A DNA stretch of 64,000 bases from Schaalia odontolytica (GTDB lineage: Bacteria; Actinomycetota; Actinomycetes; Actinomycetales; Actinomycetaceae). The position numbers and the translations under genes are program-made. The DNA is taken from assembly GCF_024584435.1 (NCBI RefSeq), contig NZ_CP102197.1, positions 1,426,001-1,490,000 of the forward strand, given 5' to 3'. Under the pieces are notes generated by a model, which searched no databases, was not told the DNA's origin, and saw only the letters and a program-made list of their open reading frames with translations. This document shows positions 12,363 to 41,348 of this stretch, in pieces; positions within the stretch are counted from its first letter, which is position 1; each line of letters starts with the position of its first letter.

Positions 12363-12404
12363 CATTGGTGCCCCAAGTCGGGCTTGAACCGACGACCGAC
12401 GGAT
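12363..12404. repeat. attL (42-bp attachment repeat)
   Basis: CATTGGTGCCCC followed by 30 more bases, identical to 41269-41310. It is the 3' end of the tRNA gene including the encoded CCA, the T arm and part of the variable and anticodon region. The bases on either side differ (T/G before, A/T after), which defines the repeat ends. Confidence 0.95.
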
Positions 12405-12460
12405 ATGTCTCGGATTTCCGCGGTTTTTCTTTACTGGCAACCCTGGTAATCCTCGATGTT

Positions 12461-12541
12461 CTTGCCCATTTGCCAGCATTGCCACTTATGCCAGTGTTAC
12501 CGGCACTGCCAGCTACGCAAGCATTGCCACTATTGCCAGCT
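12461..12541. repeat. TGCCAGCA-type repeat cluster 1
   Basis: At least five copies of a TGCCA core, in the forms TTGCCAGCATTGCCA, TATGCCAGTGTTACC, GGCACTGCCAGC, AAGCATTGCCACT and ATTGCCAGC. The same core occurs in four other clusters up to 18.1 kb, around the parA/parB genes. Candidate partition-protein or replication-protein binding array. Confidence 0.85.
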
Positions 12542-12572
12542 GCGGACGCTGGGTCCCATCATTTCCACGTAG

Positions 12573-13478
12573 ATGGAAACGTTGAGGACTATGAACACTC
12601 AACGTCATCATGTCTTGGAACTACCGACCCCTCTCATGTGGGAGGGGCACGTTGACAACTTCATCGTCTTCCTGCGCTCTCAAGGGCTCGTTGCGACCTC
12701 AATCCACACCAAACGCAACCATGTACTCCAACTGGCCCGCGCGTTCCCCGATATACCTCCCACAGAACTCGATCCCGGGTCCCTGGTCGAGTGGTGCGGT
12801 ACACGAGCGTGGGCTAACGAAACGAGACATGCTTACTACAGCACGTTCCGGAAGTTCTTCGGGTGGCTCGACTCCACACACCACTGCGGCAATATTTCCA
12901 CGGTACTCCCCCGCATCCGCCGCCCCTCAGGAGTTCCACGCCCCATACCTGACTCCGTCCTGGTGGACTGCGTTGATAGCGCGAGTCCACGTGACGCCCT
13001 CATTTTGCGGTTGGCAGCTGAGGCCGGCCTGCGGTGCGTGGAGATCGCTCAAGTTGAGGCCGGCGATGTCTACGAGGATACCGACGGTTGGAGCCTTTTC
13101 GTGCGAGGAAAGGGCGGGCGCACGAGAACTGTGCCGATCACGGCCGACCTGGCACGGGCAATCATCACGCGCTGCGCAGCAACTGGACAGTACGCGTTTC
13201 CTGGGCGTTGTGGCGGACATATGGCCGCCAATTCCGTCTCGCAGATCGGACGCCGGATTTTGCCTGACACCTGGACACTGCACAAGTTGCGTCATCGCTA
13301 CGCAACGAAGGCGTACTCGGCCGAGCATGACCTGCTCACTGTGCGCGAACTCCTGGGCCATGCATCGCTCCAGACGACCGTCCGCTACGTCGCACCATCC
13401 CCCCGAGCTCGCGACGCGATTCTCGCTGCTACCCGCATCCAGCCGCCCACCACCAGCGGTGGCGCTGCAACCCAGTGA
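12573..13478 (+). CDS. Tyrosine recombinase, ICE integrase
   Basis: 301 residues. It inserts and excises the element at the tRNA 3' end. An N-terminal SAM-like core-binding domain (about 22-112) precedes the catalytic domain. All catalytic residues are present: Arg154 (AGLRCVEIA), Lys180 (RGKGG), His237 and Arg240 (HKLRHRY), His263 (LLGHAS) and the nucleophile Tyr272 (TTVRYVA). It lies 168 bp inside attL and reads into the element. ATG at 12573 gives this length; ATG at 12591 is an alternative. Neither has a good ribosome site. In the excised circle the gene would lie directly downstream of the repressor gene now at 40953. Confidence 0.93.
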   Translation: METLRTMNTQRHHVLELPTPLMWEGHVDNFIVFLRSQGLVATSIHTKRNHVLQLARAFPDIPPTELDPGSLVEWCGTRAWANETRHAYYSTFRKFFGWLDSTHHCGNISTVLPRIRRPSGVPRPIPDSVLVDCVDSASPRDALILRLAAEAGLRCVEIAQVEAGDVYEDTDGWSLFVRGKGGRTRTVPITADLARAIITRCAATGQYAFPGRCGGHMAANSVSQIGRRILPDTWTLHKLRHRYATKAYSAEHDLLTVRELLGHASLQTTVRYVAPSPRARDAILAATRIQPPTTSGGAATQ

Positions 13479-13488
13479 TCCCACACGC

Positions 13489-13558
13489 CGCCAGCATTGC
13501 CGGACCAGTCGGCAACGCTGGCATGCCCGGCAGTGCTGGCATTGCCAGCCACCAGCAA
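13489..13558. repeat. TGCCAGCA-type repeat cluster 2
   Basis: Immediately after the integrase stop: CCAGCATTGCCGG, GTCGGCAACGCTGGCAT, CCGGCAGTGCTGGCATTGCC and CAGCCACCAGCAA. GCTGGCATTGCCAGC is palindromic apart from its central base. Confidence 0.85.
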
Positions 13559-20688: not shown

Positions 20689-21279
20689 ATGGCGACCATC
20701 GGGTATGCGCGCGTGTCAACACGCGAACAGAATACGGATGCGCAGGAAGCAGAGTTGCGGGCAGCCGGCGCACAGCGGGTGTTCGTCGACCACGGCGTGA
20801 GTTCTCGGCTCGAGCACCGTCCCGCGTGGGATGCATGTATGGAGTACCTGCGTGAGGGAGATGTCCTTGTTGTCCGTGCGCTGGATCGGTTGGCAGGCTC
20901 GGAGAGAATCGCGATCGACGTGATCCGGGATCTGGGCAAACGTGGAGTGCGGCTCCGGTCGCTGACCGAACCGTTCCTTGACGTCGACGCGTCCACGCCG
21001 ATGGGGGAAGCGATCATTGGGATCATGGCCGTGCTGGCCCAACTGCGGGTGTCGACGATCCGGGAGAACACGCGCAGAGGTCTCGCGCATGCGCGCGCTG
21101 AGGGGCGTATTGGTGGGCGTCGGCCGCGAGTGACTGGGGATCGCCTGGAGGCTGCTGAAGCGATGTTTCAGGCGGGAATGACGCATCAGCAAATCGCATC
21201 GACGTTGGGGGTGCATCGGTCGACGGTGACGCGAGCACTCGCCAAGCGCAGGCAGGAGCGCGAGCTCGGGGGCGCTTAG
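20689..21279 (+). CDS. Serine recombinase / resolvase
   Basis: 196 residues. The N-terminal resolvase domain has the nucleophile Ser10 (IGYARVSTREQN) and the conserved VVRALDRLAGS and GEAIIGIMAVLAQLR helix; the C-terminal HTH is MTHQQIASTLGVHRSTVTRAL. Size and order are those of the Tn3/Gin-type small serine recombinases. It probably resolves multimers of the excised element or acts as an invertase. The stop overlaps the convergent nucleotidyltransferase gene end by four bases. Confidence 0.93.
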   Translation: MATIGYARVSTREQNTDAQEAELRAAGAQRVFVDHGVSSRLEHRPAWDACMEYLREGDVLVVRALDRLAGSERIAIDVIRDLGKRGVRLRSLTEPFLDVDASTPMGEAIIGIMAVLAQLRVSTIRENTRRGLAHARAEGRIGGRRPRVTGDRLEAAEAMFQAGMTHQQIASTLGVHRSTVTRALAKRRQERELGGA

Positions 21280-22076
21280 AGGGTGGGTCCCTGACCTTGT
21301 TGCGGGGGCACGGAGCTTGGGCTGGGAGTAGTCGGCAGCGACGGGTGCGCAGAGCGTGTGGGCGGCAGTGTGGGCTGTGGGATTGCTCGGAGAACGTCGC
21401 GCAGTCCTCGGGGCTGTTCGTTGCGTTGATCGTCGATGTCGTCGGCCCAGGCGCGGAAACGCTGTTGGATCGCGTGGAGCTGTGGGGCGTTGACGCCGTA
21501 GGCGGATACTTGTGTCAGGGTGATGTTGCATGCCCCGCGGAGGCATTCTGTGAAGAATCCTGCGTCGAAGCCTGCGTCGCGTTCCTGCAGGAGTTCGATG
21601 AGGCGCGTATCACTGATTGTTCTGGTGGATCGGATCGCGTCGACGTCGAGGTAGTCGCGTGGGTAGCTCCTGGAGTAGAGGGCGCTGAGTTTGTTGCCGA
21701 TGGCGTCCTCGAGGGTGAGGACGGGGCCGATGTCGAGGCGTACGGGTGTGTGGGCGCGCCAGTCGATAGCGAGATCGACGCTGAGTGGAGCTCCGTGTGG
21801 TGGGGTGACGGAGAGCTGGGCGAAAGAGGGACTTCTGCGTTCGACGGTGACATCGTAGTTGTTCGCGGTGAGGTGCTCGATGAGGCTGTCTACTGCGTGG
21901 GGAAACCGCGCGGAGGCTTGCATGACCGTGAACAGGTCAATGTCGTTGGTGGGGCGCTGTGTCATCCCGTGTTCACGGATCGCGCCCGAACCAGCGAGGG
22001 CGAAGTCCGCGTCTGCGAGGACCTCGAGCGCGCATGCGATTAGCTGGCGTTGCGTCTGCTGTACAGAGCGAGCCAT
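21276..22076 (-). CDS. Nucleotidyltransferase, AbiEii/AbiGii toxin family
   Basis: 266 residues. The DNA polymerase beta-type nucleotidyltransferase motif is intact: GSGAIREHG then RPTNDIDLF, with a third acidic strand in VDLAIDW. LEDAIGNKLSALYSRSYPRDYLD is typical of the AbiEii (COG2253/PF08843) family. A proline-rich tail of about 45 residues is extra. Type IV toxin-antitoxin toxins of this fold transfer nucleotides to tRNA or other targets. The start at 22076 has GGAGGAA upstream and lies inside the 3' end of the preceding gene (37-base overlap), so the two are coupled. Confidence 0.88.
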   Translation of the reverse strand: MARSVQQTQRQLIACALEVLADADFALAGSGAIREHGMTQRPTNDIDLFTVMQASARFPHAVDSLIEHLTANNYDVTVERRSPSFAQLSVTPPHGAPLSVDLAIDWRAHTPVRLDIGPVLTLEDAIGNKLSALYSRSYPRDYLDVDAIRSTRTISDTRLIELLQERDAGFDAGFFTECLRGACNITLTQVSAYGVNAPQLHAIQQRFRAWADDIDDQRNEQPRGLRDVLRAIPQPTLPPTRSAHPSLPTTPSPSSVPPQQGQGPTL

Positions 22077-23800: not shown

Positions 23801-24208
23801 ATGAGTAGTGAAGCAGTGTCGCATTCTCGGACGGCTCGCAGGTCACGGCGGTCGGTGCGAGGGTTTCAGCGGTCTCGCCTGCTTGTGTCGTTGACGTCGT
23901 CGGAGCGCGCTCTCATTGAGGAGGGCGCTCGTCTTCGTGGCGTGTCATTGTCTCGGTTTATGGTGGAGGCAGCGCTTCACCCGGTCACCACCTCTGAGGG
24001 GATTGCTGGGCCAGCTCATGCGGAAGAGTTGATTGAGTTACTTCGCGCCTATCGGCGTCAACTTGAGGGCGCAATGACGAACCTCAATCAGATTGCGCAC
24101 CATGCGAACACGGTGCACGAGGTGCCCGAGGATTTCGAGGCTGTCGTAGGGGGAGTGGCCGATACGATCGAAGAAATTAACGCTCGCCTCGATGGGGTAC
24201 GGCGATGA
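23801..24208 (+). CDS. MobC-family mobilisation accessory protein
   Basis: 135 residues. A basic N-terminus (ARRSRRSVRGFQRSRLL) precedes a ribbon-helix-helix-like segment (LVSLTSSERALIEEGARLRG) and the MobC signature region (LRAYRRQLEGAMTNLNQIAHHANT). Such proteins bind oriT and help the relaxase melt it. The stop overlaps the relaxase ATG (ATGA). Confidence 0.88.
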   Translation: MSSEAVSHSRTARRSRRSVRGFQRSRLLVSLTSSERALIEEGARLRGVSLSRFMVEAALHPVTTSEGIAGPAHAEELIELLRAYRRQLEGAMTNLNQIAHHANTVHEVPEDFEAVVGGVADTIEEINARLDGVRR

Positions 24209-26010
24209 TCCCTAACATCGTCACAGGCGGCGACACCGGTGGGCTCATGCGCTACCTGGTGGGACCAGGGCGCGCCAATGAGCACGAGAACCCGCACGTG
24301 ATCGCGGGCTCGCGCGACATCGTGCGCAAGTGGGGTGACTGGGAGACGATCAGCGTCTCGCAGGCCAGTGAGATCGCAACGCGCTTGGACGCGTATATGC
24401 ACGAGACAGGCACCTTCCCCACAGGCAAGGCACGCCGTTTCAATCCGGCCACCGGGCAGGTGGAGTGGAATGGCGAGATCGAGGCCAACCATGTCTGGCA
24501 CTGCTCGCTCTCCCTGTCACCAGAAGAAGCTGCCCTTGGTGATGAGGTTTGGGGACGTATCGCCGCGGACTTTATGAGTGAGATGGGTTTTACCGGCACC
24601 GACGGAAAAGCACCGTGCCGGTGGGTTGCCATTCACCACGGGAGTGCAAAAAACGGCGGTGACCACATCCATATCGCTGCGAACATCGTGCGTGAGGATG
24701 GCACGAAGTGGAGTCCGTGGTACGACCAGCGGCGAGCTCAGAAGGCATGCAACGTGCTCGAGCACCGTTATGGACTCCTGGTGGTGGAGTCACGCGAGCA
24801 CGGTCGCGGCTCGAGGTGTGATAGCGCGGCCGCACAAAACGCCGCGAAGCGCGCGGGTGCCTCGCGCACGGACCGCGCTGTCCTTGAGGAACGTTTGCGC
24901 GCTGCTGCTACGGCAGCTGATAGTGAAGCTGATTTCGTGCGTCGAGCTCGTCGCCTCGGGGTGCGTCTGCACCCCAGGTTCGCGCGCGGACGCACCGACA
25001 TCGTAGTCGGGTACAGCGCCGCGCTCCGGACCGAGGACGGGCAGCAGACCCGATGGTGGGGCGGCGGCAGGATTGCCCGCGACCTCACTCTCACACAGCT
25101 GCGCACGCACTGGGAGGACACTCCGACGAGCGCGCTCGAGGCGGTCGAAGCGTGGAAGGGGCATTACCCGAAGCGGGCGCCCTACGATGGGCCGCTGTGG
25201 GAGGACCGCATCCGCGCGCTCGAGAGTTTCCGCGCGCACCTTGAGCAGCTGTCCCCCACTGATCGTGTGGGGCTTGCGAACGCATCCGCCGACATCGCCG
25301 GACTCCTGCACGCCCAAGCGATCACGGCGCGCACGTCGGGCGGACGGGATATGCTCGAGCGCGCGGCCGTCCAGGTGGGCAGGTGCGCGCAGCTCAAAAC
25401 TCGGCCAGCCGACAAGCGATTGGTCGACGTGGGTGCCCGTCTGGCCTCAGACCTGGCACTGTCGATCGCCGCTACGTCGAGCCCCCGCATGGCGGCCGTC
25501 GCGCTCGCGCACGCGACCGTCGATCTCGTACAGGCGATCGCGGATCTGCATGAGGCTGCAGGCCAAGCAGCAACCGCCGCAGCGATTGAGCGCGACGCGC
25601 AAGCTGTTTTTGATCGCGTGAACACGTACCCGCGCGTCGACGTCGATGCTCTCACGTCTGCCTATGAGCGTCTTGAGCGAGCTTCCGCGCCCGCACAGCG
25701 CGAGGCTGCACCGCCTCTTCCCCCGCCGCCGGCACCCAGGGAGGACAGTGCGATCGTCCGCGACGCCCAGGCCCTCGCCAACGCGTCGGCTGATGATGCT
25801 CTTCACCGTGTCCGCGCCGTATTAGACGCGGCCGGCATGCCGCTCGCGTCTTCTCGGCCTCGCGGTGCGCGATCGGGTATTCCGCGTGACGTTCTGGGCG
25901 GCCAGCCACGCGCGTTCAAGCCCGCGGCAATAGGCACGGATGAGGCCCAGTGCCGCGCAGCCGAGGCCGCCCAGCGGGCACAGCACAAGGACAACGGCCC
26001 AACCAGGTAG
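24205..26010 (+). CDS. Relaxase / mobilisation nuclease
   Basis: 601 residues. The relaxase domain (PF03432-like) fills the first 230: HVWHCSLSLSPEE, then APCRWVAIHHGSAKNGGDHI with the metal-binding histidine triad motif HIHIAAN at 154-160. The early tyrosine at residue 17 (MRYLVG) or Tyr64 could be the nicking nucleophile. The rest is long helical sequence with arginine/alanine-rich stretches, probably oriT binding and recruitment to the coupling protein. It starts at the ATG overlapping the mobC stop. It would nick oriT and pilot the single strand into the T4SS. Confidence 0.92.
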   Translation: MIPNIVTGGDTGGLMRYLVGPGRANEHENPHVIAGSRDIVRKWGDWETISVSQASEIATRLDAYMHETGTFPTGKARRFNPATGQVEWNGEIEANHVWHCSLSLSPEEAALGDEVWGRIAADFMSEMGFTGTDGKAPCRWVAIHHGSAKNGGDHIHIAANIVREDGTKWSPWYDQRRAQKACNVLEHRYGLLVVESREHGRGSRCDSAAAQNAAKRAGASRTDRAVLEERLRAAATAADSEADFVRRARRLGVRLHPRFARGRTDIVVGYSAALRTEDGQQTRWWGGGRIARDLTLTQLRTHWEDTPTSALEAVEAWKGHYPKRAPYDGPLWEDRIRALESFRAHLEQLSPTDRVGLANASADIAGLLHAQAITARTSGGRDMLERAAVQVGRCAQLKTRPADKRLVDVGARLASDLALSIAATSSPRMAAVALAHATVDLVQAIADLHEAAGQAATAAAIERDAQAVFDRVNTYPRVDVDALTSAYERLERASAPAQREAAPPLPPPPAPREDSAIVRDAQALANASADDALHRVRAVLDAAGMPLASSRPRGARSGIPRDVLGGQPRAFKPAAIGTDEAQCRAAEAAQRAQHKDNGPTR

Positions 26011-28492: not shown

Positions 28493-30145
28493 CTATCGTT
28501 TCTTGGTTTCCCAGTAGGGCACGGTGCGCACGTAAACAGCAGGCGCTCCCGAGGCAAACACCCACGCGCGGTTGGGGGGCATGGCCATGAGCTCCGAGAC
28601 CGGCGCGATCGAGCGCTGAGCCGCTCCTACAGACACGCTCCTCGAGGTCCCCTGCCGCCCCGAAGACGTTTGCACCTGGTCCACGTACTCCATGCCAATC
28701 AGCGTCGATAGCGACTGGAGGAATTTGTCCTCTGAGACACCGCCACCGTAGGCTTTCACGTTCGACGCTGACCAGAGTTTGTTCATGCCAGCGTCGCCCC
28801 AGACGCTCACGCCCTGGCTCCACGACTGGAGAACAGTGTCCACAACGATGCCCCGAGAGCCAAAGTGCGAGTACAAATCGGGGAGTTCACGCCACCGACA
28901 CACGTTCGCCGCCTCATCGAGGGCAACGAACAATGGGAGTGCAAGCCTGCCACCTGGCTGGGTTTTTGCATGCTCGAGGGCTGCCTCAATGACTGCGACG
29001 GTCAGTGCCGTCACAATCGGGGACGCACTACCACGGCCTTCCTGCGACAGGCAATACAGTGTATCGGTTGATGCCACAAAGTCGGTGGGGCGAAACTCCA
29101 TCACGTTCTCACTATCCTTCGCCACCGGTGGCACGACCCAGCGCAACGCCTCGTCGTTGAGCAGGAACGACATCGTTTGGGAGGCACCGCCATACACGCC
29201 ACCTCGGGTCTCGGCTGGCAGATTCATCATCCCGCGCAGCGATTGTGCGGTCATCATCTGGCCGGCGCGCTCCAGGATCCGCACCGGCTCATCATCGAGG
29301 GGCCGCGTCAGCCACTCGTGCACCGCACGAATGTCTCGGCCACCGAGGGCGGCCGCCAACAAAAGCGCAGCGACCAGGTCCTTCGAGGCCCCATCGAAGT
29401 AGGCATTCGTCATGGCACCTGGATCGCGCTGGGAATCGATGAAAACCTCGGCCAACGAAACAGCATCAACAGGTGTTCTCACCCCCGCCAGGATATTCCA
29501 CCACCACGATTGATCTTCCCCCGCAATGCCCTGAGGATCGAAGACCCACGTCGTTCCATTCTGAGCTCGCTGCCCACGAGTAATGTCAACGACGTCTCGT
29601 TTATTCGACGTCGTGAGGACTGCACCAGGTGCAGCGAGAATCCGCGGGACAACGAACGCAGTCGTTTTACCCGTCCTCGGGCCTGCAATCATCAGGCACA
29701 CGAACTCCCATGACGAAAACAGCCACGCGTTTCCTCGCACCATGCGCCCGATCGGCAAGCCTGGAGAATCAGCCACGACACCCAGCCGGGATGCCTGCGA
29801 GGCCGCCGCCCGTTCCCCCAGGACAGCGACCTCGCGCCGCGACGCACTCTTGCGCGCAACGCGATCCCCACGCTTGCGCCGACGCGGACCGCGGTGCCGC
29901 CACCTGGCTATACCGACTACGCCTGCGACGCCGGCAAGGAGAATGAGGAGCGCGAGAACGGCCACCGCGCGCGGCTGCTGACCCCGAATAATCCCGCCTG
30001 TCAGTTCCAGAAGATTCGAGGGTAACTCGATCCCCGTCCACCAGGTGTACAGCGTCCTCGCGCCGTACAGGCATCCTCCGCCGACCCCGAGCGTGATGAG
30101 AAGAAGCCAGATGCCTCGGCCGCTATCGCTCATGGAATCCCACAT
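28493..30145 (-). CDS. Type IV coupling protein (VirD4/TraG-like)
   Basis: 550 residues from ATG 30145, which comes one base after the previous stop; upstream in-frame sequence lies in the VirB4-like gene and is ignored. Two N-terminal membrane helices (about 10-32 and 58-80). Walker A is GPRTGKTT at 155-162 and Walker B is LFVALDEAANV in the C-terminal third. RGGVYGGASQTMSFLLND and SHFGSRGIVVDTVLQSWSQG are typical of TraG/VirD4 pumps. It would receive the relaxase-DNA complex and feed it to the T4SS. Confidence 0.92.
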   Translation of the reverse strand: MWDSMSDSGRGIWLLLITLGVGGGCLYGARTLYTWWTGIELPSNLLELTGGIIRGQQPRAVAVLALLILLAGVAGVVGIARWRHRGPRRRKRGDRVARKSASRREVAVLGERAAASQASRLGVVADSPGLPIGRMVRGNAWLFSSWEFVCLMIAGPRTGKTTAFVVPRILAAPGAVLTTSNKRDVVDITRGQRAQNGTTWVFDPQGIAGEDQSWWWNILAGVRTPVDAVSLAEVFIDSQRDPGAMTNAYFDGASKDLVAALLLAAALGGRDIRAVHEWLTRPLDDEPVRILERAGQMMTAQSLRGMMNLPAETRGGVYGGASQTMSFLLNDEALRWVVPPVAKDSENVMEFRPTDFVASTDTLYCLSQEGRGSASPIVTALTVAVIEAALEHAKTQPGGRLALPLFVALDEAANVCRWRELPDLYSHFGSRGIVVDTVLQSWSQGVSVWGDAGMNKLWSASNVKAYGGGVSEDKFLQSLSTLIGMEYVDQVQTSSGRQGTSRSVSVGAAQRSIAPVSELMAMPPNRAWVFASGAPAVYVRTVPYWETKKR

Positions 30146-30146
30146 G

Positions 30147-31570
30147 TCACCACCTCTTGTTCGTGTTCGACAGGTCATACTCAGCTGCCGTGAAGTCGAC
30201 CTGGAATGGGTAGGCCGGGGCGTCCGACGTTTTGAGAAGGAACTTCCCGCGGCCGATGGGGGCAGAGCTTCCCCCTGTGATCGGGTCATATTCACCGGGA
30301 GCGTTCCATGATGAGACGAGGGCTTCCTCACGGCGTGAGAACGCCATGACAGATCTGAGTTCACGCACCTCTTTGGGTGGAACACCGCCGATGAACAGCA
30401 TTTTCGATCGCTCAATAAACCCTTGGGCTTTCTGGCGATCGGATACGGACGGTAGGGCCTGGAAGTCTGCCACGGAGTGGGTGATCATGATTTGGCCCAC
30501 ACCCACCGTGCGGTTGAGGCGGGTGAGGGCGTCGACGCGCTCGACCATGCCGGAGAGGACCGAAGGATCCGCCAGAGTTCATCCATGATGAGTTGGTAGC
30601 GCTGCCGCGCGATCAGGCCCGTGTCGGCGAGAACCTGGGTGACCTCGACGGTGGCAAAACCGTATGACCAGCATGACAGTAGGACCGCTGCTTGCAGGTC
30701 TTCGTCGGCGTACATGAGCGAGGAGACGTCGAAAACGACGGAGGCATCCATGCGCATGGACACGGTTTTCTTCGCTGCAAATAGTGAGCCAAAGCGGCCC
30801 ATGAGCAGCGCCTGGAGTGAGGCCTCGAGGTCATTGGTCAACCGCTCATACTCTCCAGGTTTTCCTTTATCGAGGGCGGCCGCATGGAGCTGCTCAGGCC
30901 CCTCTTGGACGATACGAAGAACATCGGCGAGAGTCGGCGTGCCCACGTATGTTTCCTCGAGGACACGGATAGCGGCATCCACGATTGTTTCCTCGCGATC
31001 CGTGGGTGGCTGGCGTCGAATGATCTGGATCAGTGAACACACCAGCTGTTTCTTGCGCTCGTGAGCTGCTTCCGTCACTTCCTGGGCTTCGCGGACGTAC
31101 CCGGCTGCCAGCAGCATCTCCGCCGCTTCGTCGGCATTACCACCATCAAGTGGGTTCAGCCCCGTCTTTCCGTGTCCGATGGAGATGATCTGCCCACCCA
31201 GGGCATCAATGACGTCGGCGTATTCGCCTTTGACGTCTCCGACAACCATGGAGTGGATACCGAATGCTTCGGCCCCCAAAACCATCCTCCTAATCAGCGA
31301 GGATTTCCCCAAACCATTCAGGCCCAGAACCATGGCAGATGGGGCGGAGATCAATCCCGTCTGAAACCAACTAATCGGGTCGGCGCACACCGCGCCGGTC
31401 CCATCCGTCGCTCTCCCCAGAGGAACACCCACGGGTGGCGGGGTTCCACCCGCGACGAATGGATACAGACCGCACACCTGCACGCTTGTCCCGCGATAGT
31501 CATGAATGCGGGGAAGCGGCGTCACGCCGCCACCACCAGGGCGGTTGAGATCCGCGATCGTGACGCTCAT
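30147..31570 (-). pseudogene. VirB4-like T4SS ATPase, frameshifted
   Basis: Starts at ATG 31570 (ATGA overlap with the SCO6880-family gene). Walker A is LGLNGLGKSSLIRR at about residue 85, and Walker B is QLIMDELWRILR near residue 340. Just after Walker B the frame breaks: the first frame runs on into unrelated residues, while the second frame continues with MVERVDALTRLNRTVGVGQ, MITHSVADFQALP and ends YDLSNTNKRW. One missing G (CCGGC where CCGGGC is expected, plus-strand 30550-30551) accounts for it exactly. There is no slippery heptamer. If real, the ATPase loses its C-terminal 130 residues and conjugation should fail; a sequencing error is possible. Confidence 0.88.
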
Positions 31571-33051
31571 ACTGCCCACACTTTCTGCCAGGACGGCACG
31601 ACACCCAGCGGAAGCCCGAGGGCGAACGCTGAATCCTGCGCTCCGAAGGCAGGCCTCATGCGCAACTTCGACGCGGACGCAAGTGAAGTGATGGCCGCAG
31701 CTGTGTCGTCAAGGTCCTCCCCCGTCACTGTGGCAGTGACCAGGACTGTGAAGTCGACCAGGCCCGCACCGGAGGCTTCCTCCTGAGCGTTCTTCCTGGC
31801 GATCGCTACCTCACGAGCGGCGCGCGCCGTGACATTTTTCGACATACCGGCCGCTGCTCTGGCCGTCGTCGTATCGCGCTCGACGATGTCACCCGTCATG
31901 GCGGCATCAATGGGCCGAAGCAAGAGGGTCACGCGCTTACGCTCCACATCCCGCGAAATGGACATGAGCCGTGACAGCACGCCAGATTGTACGACGCCCG
32001 ACGGTGCCTTGGTCAGCACCCATGTGCGTGACAGGCCCGAATCATGACGGAATGAATCGAAGGAAGTGTGGGTGCCGACGGGGCCAGCATCCTCCCAGTC
32101 CAGGTCAATCTTCTGGCCAGCGGCCGTTGCTTCTTCGAAGAGCGGTTCGGACGCCGGGTCGTAGGCGACACGCACCAAGCGAGTCACGTCGGTGGCTGTG
32201 AGGAGGTGGGCAGGTCCCGTTCCGGCTGCTTCCAGCGAGTGCGTCAAGTAGGGCAGGCGCGTCCCGATCTCGCGGGCAATCTGGTCGGCCGCGCGCTTCT
32301 TCACGCTCATGCGCTTGGTATCGAAGGTGAGGGTCACTGTGCAGCGCAGCTGCGCCGCACCCGCGCGGTACTGCGAGACAGCGTCGCGCACAACGCTCAG
32401 TGCGATCGCCGGAGCAGTTGCGTCGAGGCGAGCGTTCACCTGGCGCTCAAGGGCACCGCCGGTATCGGGCACTGTCTCCACGCAGACACTGGCCTGAGCG
32501 ATGCCGATTTCGCTTCCCAGGTCGGCAAGCCAGACACCCCAGTGTGCAACCTGTTGGTCGATGCGTTCCTGGTCAACCAGGGCAATACCCGACGGAGCGA
32601 CGCCCATAATGACGCTCACGTGAGCGCTGCCGTGGTGGATGAGGGCAAACGGTCGATCATATGAATCAACATGTTCGCTGATGCGCGATCCTGAGAGCAG
32701 GCCAGGAAGGCGCGCGCGCCCACCCGGGACAACGCCGATCGGTCCGGACCTATACACGGTGCGGCGAGCTCGACGGCGCCGAGCAAACGACACCCGCTCA
32801 ACCATCTTGTCCCACACACTCACGCCATGGGCGTCGCGGATGTCCATCGCCACCAAAATGGACAGCCCCGACAGCAACAGTACCGCTGCGCGCGCGAAAC
32901 CAAACGATCCATACACGAGGATCGATGCGATAAGCAGCGCCAGCAGCGCCATCGTCTCGAAGAAGCTCGACTTGCCCATGCCCGCCAGCCGCGGGTGCCG
33001 CCAGTTCCCATACGTGCGAATCTCCGTCTCTGTTGCACCGATCGTGCTCAT
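31567..33051 (-). CDS. SCO6880-family T4SS protein
   Basis: 494 residues. Two hydrophobic segments near the N-terminus (FFETMALLALLIASILVYGS, AAVLLLSGLSILVAM) resemble a VirB3/PrgI-like anchor. A soluble part similar to the N-terminal domain of VirB4 proteins follows; this is the family called SCO6880 in actinobacterial ICEs. It overlaps both neighbours by four bases (ATGA), so expression of the T4SS genes is translationally coupled. Probably the inner-membrane base of the channel paired with the VirB4-like ATPase. Confidence 0.85.
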   Translation of the reverse strand: MSTIGATETEIRTYGNWRHPRLAGMGKSSFFETMALLALLIASILVYGSFGFARAAVLLLSGLSILVAMDIRDAHGVSVWDKMVERVSFARRRRARRTVYRSGPIGVVPGGRARLPGLLSGSRISEHVDSYDRPFALIHHGSAHVSVIMGVAPSGIALVDQERIDQQVAHWGVWLADLGSEIGIAQASVCVETVPDTGGALERQVNARLDATAPAIALSVVRDAVSQYRAGAAQLRCTVTLTFDTKRMSVKKRAADQIAREIGTRLPYLTHSLEAAGTGPAHLLTATDVTRLVRVAYDPASEPLFEEATAAGQKIDLDWEDAGPVGTHTSFDSFRHDSGLSRTWVLTKAPSGVVQSGVLSRLMSISRDVERKRVTLLLRPIDAAMTGDIVERDTTTARAAAGMSKNVTARAAREVAIARKNAQEEASGAGLVDFTVLVTATVTGEDLDDTAAAITSLASASKLRMRPAFGAQDSAFALGLPLGVVPSWQKVWAV

Positions 33052-35064: not shown

Positions 35065-35352
35065 TTAGACAAACTGCCTGATGATAATCGGTGCCGACAC
35101 GACGATGAGGACACCAGCAATACCCCACCCAACCTTTTCAACGGCTTCGCCACCAGCTCCAGGCCCTTGCCGATTGTGAAGGGCAATCATCCCGCCTGCG
35201 ATAATCAAGCCGAGCACACCGCAGATAATGCCAATCCACATGGCATTGCCCAAAAGATCATTGATCTTGTCCATCAGGCCTTCAATCGCCTTCGGTGACG
35301 GGTTCGGAACCACATCGGTCCCAAGTAGTGCAGAAATGCGCGATGCAAACAT
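35065..35352 (-). CDS. VirB2/TrbC-like small membrane protein (pilin-like)
   Basis: 95 residues from ATG 35352 (TGATG overlap with the upstream stop; AAAGGA seven bases before). Two hydrophobic helices (AMWIGIICGVLGLIIAGGMI, VGWGIAGVLIVVSAPIII) separated by a short loop with HNRQGPGAGGEA, the pattern of VirB2/TrbC-type pilins in Gram-positive T4SS. Directly upstream of the VirB8-like gene. Confidence 0.75.
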   Translation of the reverse strand: MFASRISALLGTDVVPNPSPKAIEGLMDKINDLLGNAMWIGIICGVLGLIIAGGMIALHNRQGPGAGGEAVEKVGWGIAGVLIVVSAPIIIRQFV

Positions 35353-35942
35353 CAGGCTGTCCTTTCGGTCCATGCCGCCACGGTGGCGGCGATCTTGTTG
35401 ATACGGCGCGAACGATCAGCATTCACGTCGTTTTCCTGGGCAAAGCGCCACTGCGCTTGCCACGGAACAAATGTGCAGTGAGGGAATGCTCCCGACGAGA
35501 TCTGGAATTGATCGCGGAGCGAACGCGGGAGACGGCCAGGGGCATCGGCCCCGACGACGAGGCCAACGAGTTGTCCCGGCAGTGCTCCCGACGCCCACTC
35601 GATGGCGACATCCTGCGCGGCACGCAGCCCCGCCGCAGTTGATCGACAACAGACCACGACCCTCAACGCTCGCGTTGGGTCGACGTGCTGCGGCCACGAT
35701 GCACCGGCATCGCCGCCGCCGAGGATACTTGCCCAGGTCGAGGTTCCGGCACCACCGTGAGCGCCCACGGTCCACAGGAGAGGCGCGCCGTCGACGGCCG
35801 ATCGCCGGATACGACGCCGAACCGTGAGTCCATCAACGCCCGGAGCCCACGGACGCGCAGCGGCCACAGCAGGAGGCGGCGGGATCGGCACCGACGGACC
35901 AACAGGCGCCATCCAAGCACCCTCAGCAGGCTCAAACGACAT
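35352..35942 (-). CDS. DUF6668-like P-loop protein
   Basis: 196 residues from ATG 35942 (GAAAGGAA five bases upstream). A proline-rich N-terminus is followed by LLWTVGAHGGAGTSTWASIL, which resembles the P-loop of MinD/ParA-like ATPases, and by LRVVVCCRSTAAGLRAAQDV. The family occurs next to T4SS genes in actinobacterial ICEs (DUF6668 by my recollection). First gene of the leftward T4SS operon; perhaps positions the channel or supports DNA transfer. Confidence 0.68.
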   Translation of the reverse strand: MSFEPAEGAWMAPVGPSVPIPPPPAVAAARPWAPGVDGLTVRRRIRRSAVDGAPLLWTVGAHGGAGTSTWASILGGGDAGASWPQHVDPTRALRVVVCCRSTAAGLRAAQDVAIEWASGALPGQLVGLVVGADAPGRLPRSLRDQFQISSGAFPHCTFVPWQAQWRFAQENDVNADRSRRINKIAATVAAWTERTA

Positions 35943-40562: not shown

Positions 40563-40874
40563 CTACCGCCCCGCCTTCCCCAGGCCCGGCAACGTCGCCG
40601 GACCTTCCGCACCACCCTTGCCGGGGACCGAACCAGATTCCACAGCACCATCAACTGCCCCGAGATGTCCGACTTGCCTCGCAAGCAGAGCACTGATGTC
40701 TGACCGCCGAAACCAGCGCGGTCCCCGTGGTACGTATTGCACGGACGGCACGGTGCCCTCGCGCGCCCACCTCATGAGCTGCGCGTAACTCACCCCAGGG
40801 AGCATTTTGACGGCCGCATGACTCGTCAATAAATCGCCGATCACCGATTGATCGTTAGGATTTCGTTCACTCAT
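40563..40874 (-). CDS. Excisionase-like / helix-turn-helix protein
   Basis: 103 residues from ATG 40874 (ATG 40880 also possible). The core TSHAAVKMLPGVSYAQLMRW followed by REGTVPSVQYVPRGPRWF and RRSDI has the pattern of MerR/excisionase-type winged helices (position-specific W-A-R-E-G, then R-W-F-R-x-S-D). It lies close to attR and is divergent from the repressor gene, the standard arrangement for an Xis that directs excision with the integrase. Confidence 0.75.
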   Translation of the reverse strand: MSERNPNDQSVIGDLLTSHAAVKMLPGVSYAQLMRWAREGTVPSVQYVPRGPRWFRRSDISALLARQVGHLGAVDGAVESGSVPGKGGAEGPATLPGLGKAGR

Positions 40875-40945
40875 AAGCATATGATGCACAGCTCTTACAT
40901 GAATGTCAAGGAGTCGATTGTTAGCGTTTCGTTCATCTGTTACGC
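40853..40945. repeat. Pair of imperfect direct repeats in the xis/repressor control region (operator candidates)
   Basis: GTTAGGATTTCGTTCAC (from 40854) and GTTAGCGTTTCGTTCAT (from 40921) share 14 of 17 bases. The second overlaps the spacer of the repressor promoter; the first covers the start of the Xis-like gene. This suggests binding sites of one regulator acting on both divergent genes. Confidence 0.65.
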
Positions 40946-40952: not shown

Positions 40953-41315
40953 ATGGTCAACAAGCGAAGCGCAAGCAACGGGTCCCTCAGCTTCGACGCG
41001 GCTGTCGGAGCAACGGTGAACCAGTACCTGCTGATTCATGGCCTCACGCGTGCCGAAATTGGCAAACTGCTAGGGGTTGCAGGGTCGAATGTCAGCCAAC
41101 GTCTTCGAGGACAAATTGGCTGGCCAGCACACGACCTGTTCGCACTTGGGCGAACCTTCGGCGTCCCCGTTGATGCCCTCATGCCGTCCCCGGACGGCGC
41201 GGGCGGGTGGGTGCCCGCGCCGTACGCGCCCGCCTCGCGGGCCCTGGCGCGCGACTCCGCCGGGGAGGCATTGGTGCCCCAAGTCGGGCTTGAACCGACG
41301 ACCGACGGATTATGA
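40953..41315 (+). CDS. XRE-family HTH repressor whose 3' end is formed by the attachment site
   Basis: 120 residues. One HTH_3 domain (about 17-72: LIHGLTRAEIGKLLGVAGSN, VSQRLRGQIGWPAHDLFALG). The C-terminal 15 residues are encoded by attR and the frame ends TTATGA inside the tRNA gene. After excision the same frame would continue through the left end of the element for another 83 residues and stop at the position now numbered 12655. Likely immunity or lysogeny-type repressor of the ICE, divergent from the Xis-like gene; candidate substrate of the HTH-ImmA protein at 16434. Confidence 0.78.
   Translation: MVNKRSASNGSLSFDAAVGATVNQYLLIHGLTRAEIGKLLGVAGSNVSQRLRGQIGWPAHDLFALGRTFGVPVDALMPSPDGAGGWVPAPYAPASRALARDSAGEALVPQVGLEPTTDGL
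41269..41310. repeat. attR (42-bp attachment repeat)
   Basis: Identical to 12363-12404. It overlaps the 3' half of the tRNA gene at 41272-41348, so the integrated element leaves the tRNA sequence intact. Confidence 0.95.
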
Positions 41316-41348
41316 GTCCGCTGCTCTGACCGACTGAGCTATTGGGGC
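41272..41348 (-). tRNA. tRNA-Met (anticodon CAT; tRNA-Ile2 not excluded), ICE target
   Basis: 77 bases including encoded CCA. Acceptor GCCCCAA / TTGGGGC, D-arm GCTCAGTCGGTCAGAGC, anticodon stem-loop CGGACTCATAATCCG with CAT, T-arm with GGTTCAAGCC. A CAT anticodon reads Met, or Ile if the C is lysidine-modified; the sequence does not decide which. It lacks the initiator-type unpaired first base, so it is not tRNA-fMet. Confidence 0.93.

Follow-up and report, generated by a model that had tools for sequence, protein, structure and literature searches.

At the right end of an integrated element of Schaalia odontolytica, a short gene for a helix-turn-helix (HTH) protein, here named rep, ends within a host tRNA gene, and the question raised by this locus is what becomes of the protein when the element leaves the chromosome. 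The genome is 2.39 Mb in length and consists of one contig; the window is the whole stretch of 64,000 nucleotides that was analysed, and all positions are counted from its first letter. The limits of the element, its integration target and the genes which bear on its type are the following:

12363..12404, plus strand: attL core, 42 bp identical to the attR core
12573..13478, plus strand: int, tyrosine integrase (Phage_integrase 6.3e-19; PHROGs integrase 4.2e-31)
24205..26010, plus strand: relaxase (Pfam Relaxase 1.1e-14)
28493..30415, minus strand: TraG/TraD-type coupling protein (TraG-D_C 8.8e-30)
30485..31579, minus strand: VirB4-like ATPase (best E 3.3e-11, below the NCBIfam cut-offs)
31567..33051, minus strand: SCO6880-family protein (NF042935 1.7e-150)
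35065..35373, minus strand: T4SS pilin-like protein (T4SS_pilin 2.1e-4, TrbC 3.8e-4; below the Pfam cut-off)
41269..41310, plus strand: attR core, the longest exact match between the two ends of the element
41272..41348, minus strand: tRNA-Met(CAT), the integration target, intact at attR and antisense to rep (ARAGORN)

The 42-bp core is the 3′ part of the tRNA-Met(CAT) gene, and attL is the only second match in the genome to a 431-nt query ending in the core. The translational start of int probably lies at 12591, downstream of a GAGG motif, and its product is 90% identical to the integrase of Actinomyces sp. HPA0247. Because a tyrosine integrase, a relaxase, a coupling protein, and VirB4-like, SCO6880-family and pilin-like proteins are all encoded between the cores, we regard the element as a conjugative one (ICE) of approximately 29 kb; the domain scans took in part of its open reading frames, one among them with NCBIfam only. 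A phage carrier is not indicated, since the two portal matches of the genome both lie outside the ICE. The cargo includes an AbiEii-type nucleotidyltransferase (21276-22076, minus strand; Pfam 7e-13).

The surroundings of rep, and the left-end sequences which it would meet in an excised circle, are as follows:

40563..40874, minus strand: xis-like gene, divergent from rep (PHROGs excisionase and transcriptional regulator, phrog_66, E 2.4e-4)
40850..40869, plus strand: candidate operator-like repeat, copy 1, over the 5′ end of xis (20-nt direct repeat, 85%)
40881..40909, minus strand: promoter-like TTGACA-17-CATCAT before xis (consensus scan, 1 found against 0.2 expected)
40916..40935, plus strand: candidate operator-like repeat, copy 2, upstream of rep (20-nt direct repeat, 85%)
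40953..41315, plus strand: rep, HTH repressor-like protein of 120 amino acids when integrated, its stop codon in the host tRNA gene
12405..12655, plus strand: DNA for the 83-residue circle-only tail of Rep (in silico join and translation)
12533..12562, plus strand: weak promoter-like site upstream of int, present in both states (consensus scan, 9/12, 0.2 expected)

Rep contains a BetR domain above the Pfam cut-off, together with weak matches to HTH_31 and to the PHROGs transcriptional repressor, and a profile built from its relatives matches 434, P22 C2 and SinR (E 0.002-0.01). Single-sequence folding of the short form gave a mean pLDDT of 54.5, with helices between residues 16 and 76 and the rest unconfident. 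As the first-pass annotation had stated, the integrated frame crosses the core and stops just inside the tRNA-Met gene, the stop codon ending 5 nt beyond the core, and rep on the plus strand runs antisense to the tRNA gene on the minus strand. The uninterrupted frame which it had proposed for the circle was also recovered upon joining the two ends in silico: Rep becomes a protein of 202 residues, 119 of them common to both forms, the last residue of the short form (Leu) being lost and 83 being gained, and the frame closes at 12655, overlapping the 5′ part of the int ORF. In the joined circle attP lies within the repressor ORF, the two states give different C-termini, and the tyrosine integrase is located downstream of rep on the same strand, the gene order read from the sequence being xis-like gene, operator-like repeats, rep, attP and int. 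No terminator-like sites were found on the plus strand between 40700 and 41500.

The start codon of the xis-like gene is our choice, and its HTH_17 match (0.0034) is below the cut-off. The promoter-like site before this gene sits between the two operator-like repeats, to which Rep may bind. The motif has two matches in the window, where 0.01 are expected, and no further target promoters carrying it were found in the window beyond these two copies.

We consider it most probable (roughly 0.6) that this is the ICE counterpart of the integration-dependent immunity of phages, with attP placed within the repressor gene. In the chromosome the host tRNA gene supplies the stop codon of rep, and the short Rep made there would be the working repressor, silencing xis and the transfer genes. 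In the circle the tailed Rep would be weak, unstable or inactive, leaving xis and the transfer genes on, and the rep promoter would drive int up to the point at which re-integration brings back the short form.

For this mechanism a precedent has been published in phages; the first-pass annotation had not named it. In mycobacteriophage BPs, according to the parts of the experimental account covered here (PMC4557955), the long form of the repressor is degraded via an ssrA-like tag and the short form represses, DNA binding being similar in both. In BPs as described there, as in the ICE, attP is within the repressor ORF, a tyrosine integrase gene follows on the same strand, a small gene is transcribed divergently and the integrated repressor is the shorter one. 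Systems of this kind have a divergent gene of cro-like or similar type, with operators between it and the repressor gene; in the window the divergent gene is xis-like and the two repeats are candidates. Unlike BPs, the carrier is an ICE, and the tail is 83 residues long rather than 33, has no ssrA-like end and overlaps int; furthermore, a single residue is peculiar to the short Rep, whose stop codon is in the tRNA gene. The long form in the window ends GGAR, which is not an ssrA-like tag, and the tmRNA tag of the host ends VLAA. Such tags are typical but not universal, for some of the prophages of M. abscessus with integration-dependent immunity are without them; in the same prophages int is adjacent or 3-5 genes away and the tails are of 20-35 residues (PMC8092301, in the parts covered). 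These systems are prophages with short tails, whereas the window holds an ICE with a tail of 83 residues. Since most tails in the ICEs examined lack an ssrA-like end and many extend into int, any inactivation must work differently there, and since the carrier is not a phage and the usual (though not universal) tag is absent, we speak of a variant of integration-dependent immunity.

Like layouts have been described in about half of one set of Gordonia phages (PMC5559632) and in two Bifidobacterium prophages (PMC6109161), in the sections of these papers covered here. Rep matches gp33 of Gordonia phage Dogfish, annotated as an immunity repressor (33% identity over 58% of the query), and gp38 of Gordonia phage Pipp (31% identity over 54%). 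In both phages the homologue is located directly upstream of a tyrosine integrase (Dogfish gp33 and gp32, Pipp gp38 and gp37), as in the ICE circle; these are virion genomes, and their Rep homologues end AAA, unlike the GGAR of the window. Two circular Corynebacterium records filed as plasmids (L187 and L188) were found through int; they contain portal and terminase genes and look like small phages. In each the 3′ end of a short HTH gene reads through a tRNA-like core, recognised by eye, and the int open frame follows 13-15 nt after this gene; the HTH proteins, which end GVRAA and RPVA, are likened to Rep by layout and not by homology.

Within the Actinomycetaceae, a match to rep was found in 88 of 213 genomes and a match to int (E ≤ 1e-30) in 44 of 213. 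The rep matches fall at 123 places, from which overlapping sets of 42 and 45, picked for a strong match or for int nearby, were examined, followed by 18 more. In these overlapping picked sets the Rep homologue ends within a tRNA gene, and antisense to it, at 39 of 42 and 44 of 45 places. The three misses of the 42 are contig 6 of G117, where the contig ends and no tRNA gene is present, and weak matches in G159 and G156. When the query was deprived of its tRNA-derived end, all eight matches at E < 1e-10 (the window included) ended in a tRNA gene, as did 19 of 30 over all loci. The genes concerned are those for tRNA-Met, -Lys, -Thr, -Arg and -Asn, with two frames used for Thr and Lys, from which it follows that the layout recurs and not one sequence.

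Candidates for attL were recovered for 30 of 44 places and kept at fewer than four mismatches of 38 (G017, G061 and one G151 element, with 7-8 mismatches, were dropped); the 27 kept and five from the later 18 give 32 elements. The attP-spanning frame, which it had been proposed to compare in related ICEs, recurs in this set: in 31 of the 32 elements, the window included, rep runs through the core and stops after it, the exception being G374, where the stop lies inside the core. Of the two remaining frames, one passes through the core in 20 of the 32 and the other in 21, so that crossing alone is only mildly unusual for any one element. Stops right after the core on the left side, expected by the first-pass annotation if its reading were wrong, are absent in the nearest kin, with tails of 82-85 codons (G155, G161, G145 and one G151 element), and another G151 element, whose core match is poor, has a tail of 85-91 codons; elsewhere, shorter tails of 7-12 codons occur (one G009 element, both G082 elements and G054), in addition to the stop of G374. 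In 24 of the 32 elements a xis-like divergent frame precedes rep, as judged by eye from the longest divergent frame.

In G271 (L223-L225) two copies of approximately 14.5 kb lie in tandem at tRNA-Lys, and their inner junction contains the predicted attP verbatim (357 nt tested), a full attP with the long repressor frame. In G564 (L203) a chromosomal repressor homologue passes through a tRNA-like core and ends in a hydrophobic tail; no intact tRNA gene was found over its stop. Scans of viral contigs with int and with rep revealed no relative. Judged by sequence comparison, the layout is genuine and belongs to an architecture which recurs.

The alternative which survives best is that the promoter alone is switched. 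The rep promoter would drive int in the circle, both forms of Rep would be equally active, and the tail would be the passive result of one translated rep-int transcript. We regard this as unlikely, although several observations fit it well. Among elements with int adjacent, the rep frame is open into int in 13 of 19, where dinucleotide shuffles expect 3.2, and the other two frames are open in 5 of 38; int starts were estimated from the profile match, may be off by some codons and leave the frame flag of G060 inconsistent. Counted by lineage the figures are 7 of 13 against 2.5 expected (P 0.003) and, for ICE lineages, 7 of 10 against 1.7 expected (P 1.2e-4), the lineages being our own grouping rather than derived from a tree. 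Both sets of counts speak for the preferred reading as well. The excised rep frame even continues in frame through int in G113 (L104/L115/L261), G122 (L105/L120), G159 (L139-L140) and G134 (L166-L168), and likewise in G117, with a cruder pairing and no intact tRNA gene on the contig; the circles of these lineages would encode a repressor-integrase fusion. Four of the six elements not open into int end in the ssrA-like [AV]A (G079, G070, G082 and one G009 element), in G082 and G059 the rep frame closes 2-3 nt ahead of the estimated start of int, and neither feature is present in G054. In the window alone shuffling keeps the rep frame open to int in 8% of trials, which makes this case only mildly unusual. 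When substitutions were simulated at random to the divergence observed, 0.43-0.65 of the runs still had an open frame; taken alone, the three closest elements therefore carry little weight.

The substitution pattern of the tail also fits a passive extension. The hydrophobic LLATLVILDVL and the LP-rich part to which the first-pass annotation had drawn attention are both present, the LP-rich part coinciding with direct repeats at spacings of 27, 18 and 45 nt. In the part before int, comparison of the window with its two nearest relatives gives substitutions of 11/13/8, 7/8/8 and 15/14/14 by codon position; this even distribution means that the tail residues are not detectably constrained, and a coded function for them was rejected as unsupported. 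Thus, of the view that integration state changes both the form of Rep and integrase expression, the change of C-terminus and the placing of the rep promoter upstream of int, which excision would bring about, are retained, and a specific role for the hydrophobic or LP-rich residues is not. Repeats of the GCCAGCATTGCC type flank int (12472-12540 and 13490-13549), the left ones encoding the LP-rich tail, and may serve as arm sites for the integrase. In 18 of 27 elements neither of the other frames is as hydrophobic as that of rep, and in 16 of 27 neither stays open for longer; this bias is suggestive, but no weight is placed on it, since the elements are not independent and composition can produce it.

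A switch of the int promoter with integration state has precedent in ICEKp1, ICEEc1 and ICEclc (PMC13023037), and excision would in the same manner put a right-end promoter upstream of int here. In the ICEKp1 type the tRNA promoter drives int when the element is integrated (PMC13023037); in the window, the intact tRNA gene is located at the end opposite int, on the other strand and antisense to rep. That account, in the parts covered, describes no change of a repressor protein.

The ends of the tails bear on both sides. The 27 elements were typed with two Pfam models, match positions being compared with element limits by hand: 22 have a coupling-protein match (weak in G079, 2e-9), two a phage portal match and three neither. 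Tails ending [AV]A were found in 1 of 22 ICEs, 2 of 2 phage-type elements and 2 of 3 of neither type, as well as in 4 of 4 named phage records. Their scarcity in the ICEs favours a mere promoter switch; against it, such ends occur in the rep frame of 5 of the 27 elements and in none of 27 for each other frame (background 111 of 8881 stretches). Together with the 44 of 45 ends in tRNA genes, this excess suggests that for some of the family, at least, the C-terminus itself is important. Where int is at least 1.4 kb away, the rep frame is mostly not the longest and is not favoured; the layout is retained there, a further point against a promoter switch alone. What the comparison supports is where rep ends and what comes next, and not the composition of the tail; selection may act on the coupling of rep to int in the circle.

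That the last gene of the ICE merely runs into the tRNA attachment site for lack of space, its open frame being due to chance in GC-rich DNA with repeats spaced in multiples of three and involving no switch, is improbable: the 8% of shuffles open to int, these repeat spacings and the 20 and 21 of 32 crossings by other frames are in its favour, but at 44 of 45 places the Rep homologue terminates in a tRNA gene, five kinds of which are represented, 31 of 32 stops lie beyond the core, rep frames open into int are in excess, and phage homologues share a layout for which related phages have a published, functioning switch (PMC4557955 and PMC8092301, in the parts covered).

Returning to integration-dependent immunity in an ICE, a survey of actinobacterial ICEs (PMC3218068) mentions nothing of such a switch in the passages covered. 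Among the matches listed from the open-access literature, mostly titles and the starts of abstracts, none describes one for conjugative elements or islands; an account may exist in papers under subscription. A wider generalisation is tentative and, we think, doubtful, namely that Actinomycetaceae ICEs as a class alternate between two repressors, a short one and one which exists only in the circle, with a tail extending into the integrase or joined to it in frame, excision disarming the repressor and turning on the integrase in one step without an ssrA tag, and integration cutting the fusions in two.

The preferred reading predicts one gene with two repressor proteins, selected by excision. If it is true, a phage switch has been carried over to conjugative elements; recombination itself would rewrite the repressor, and gene expression would be bound to follow the integration state.
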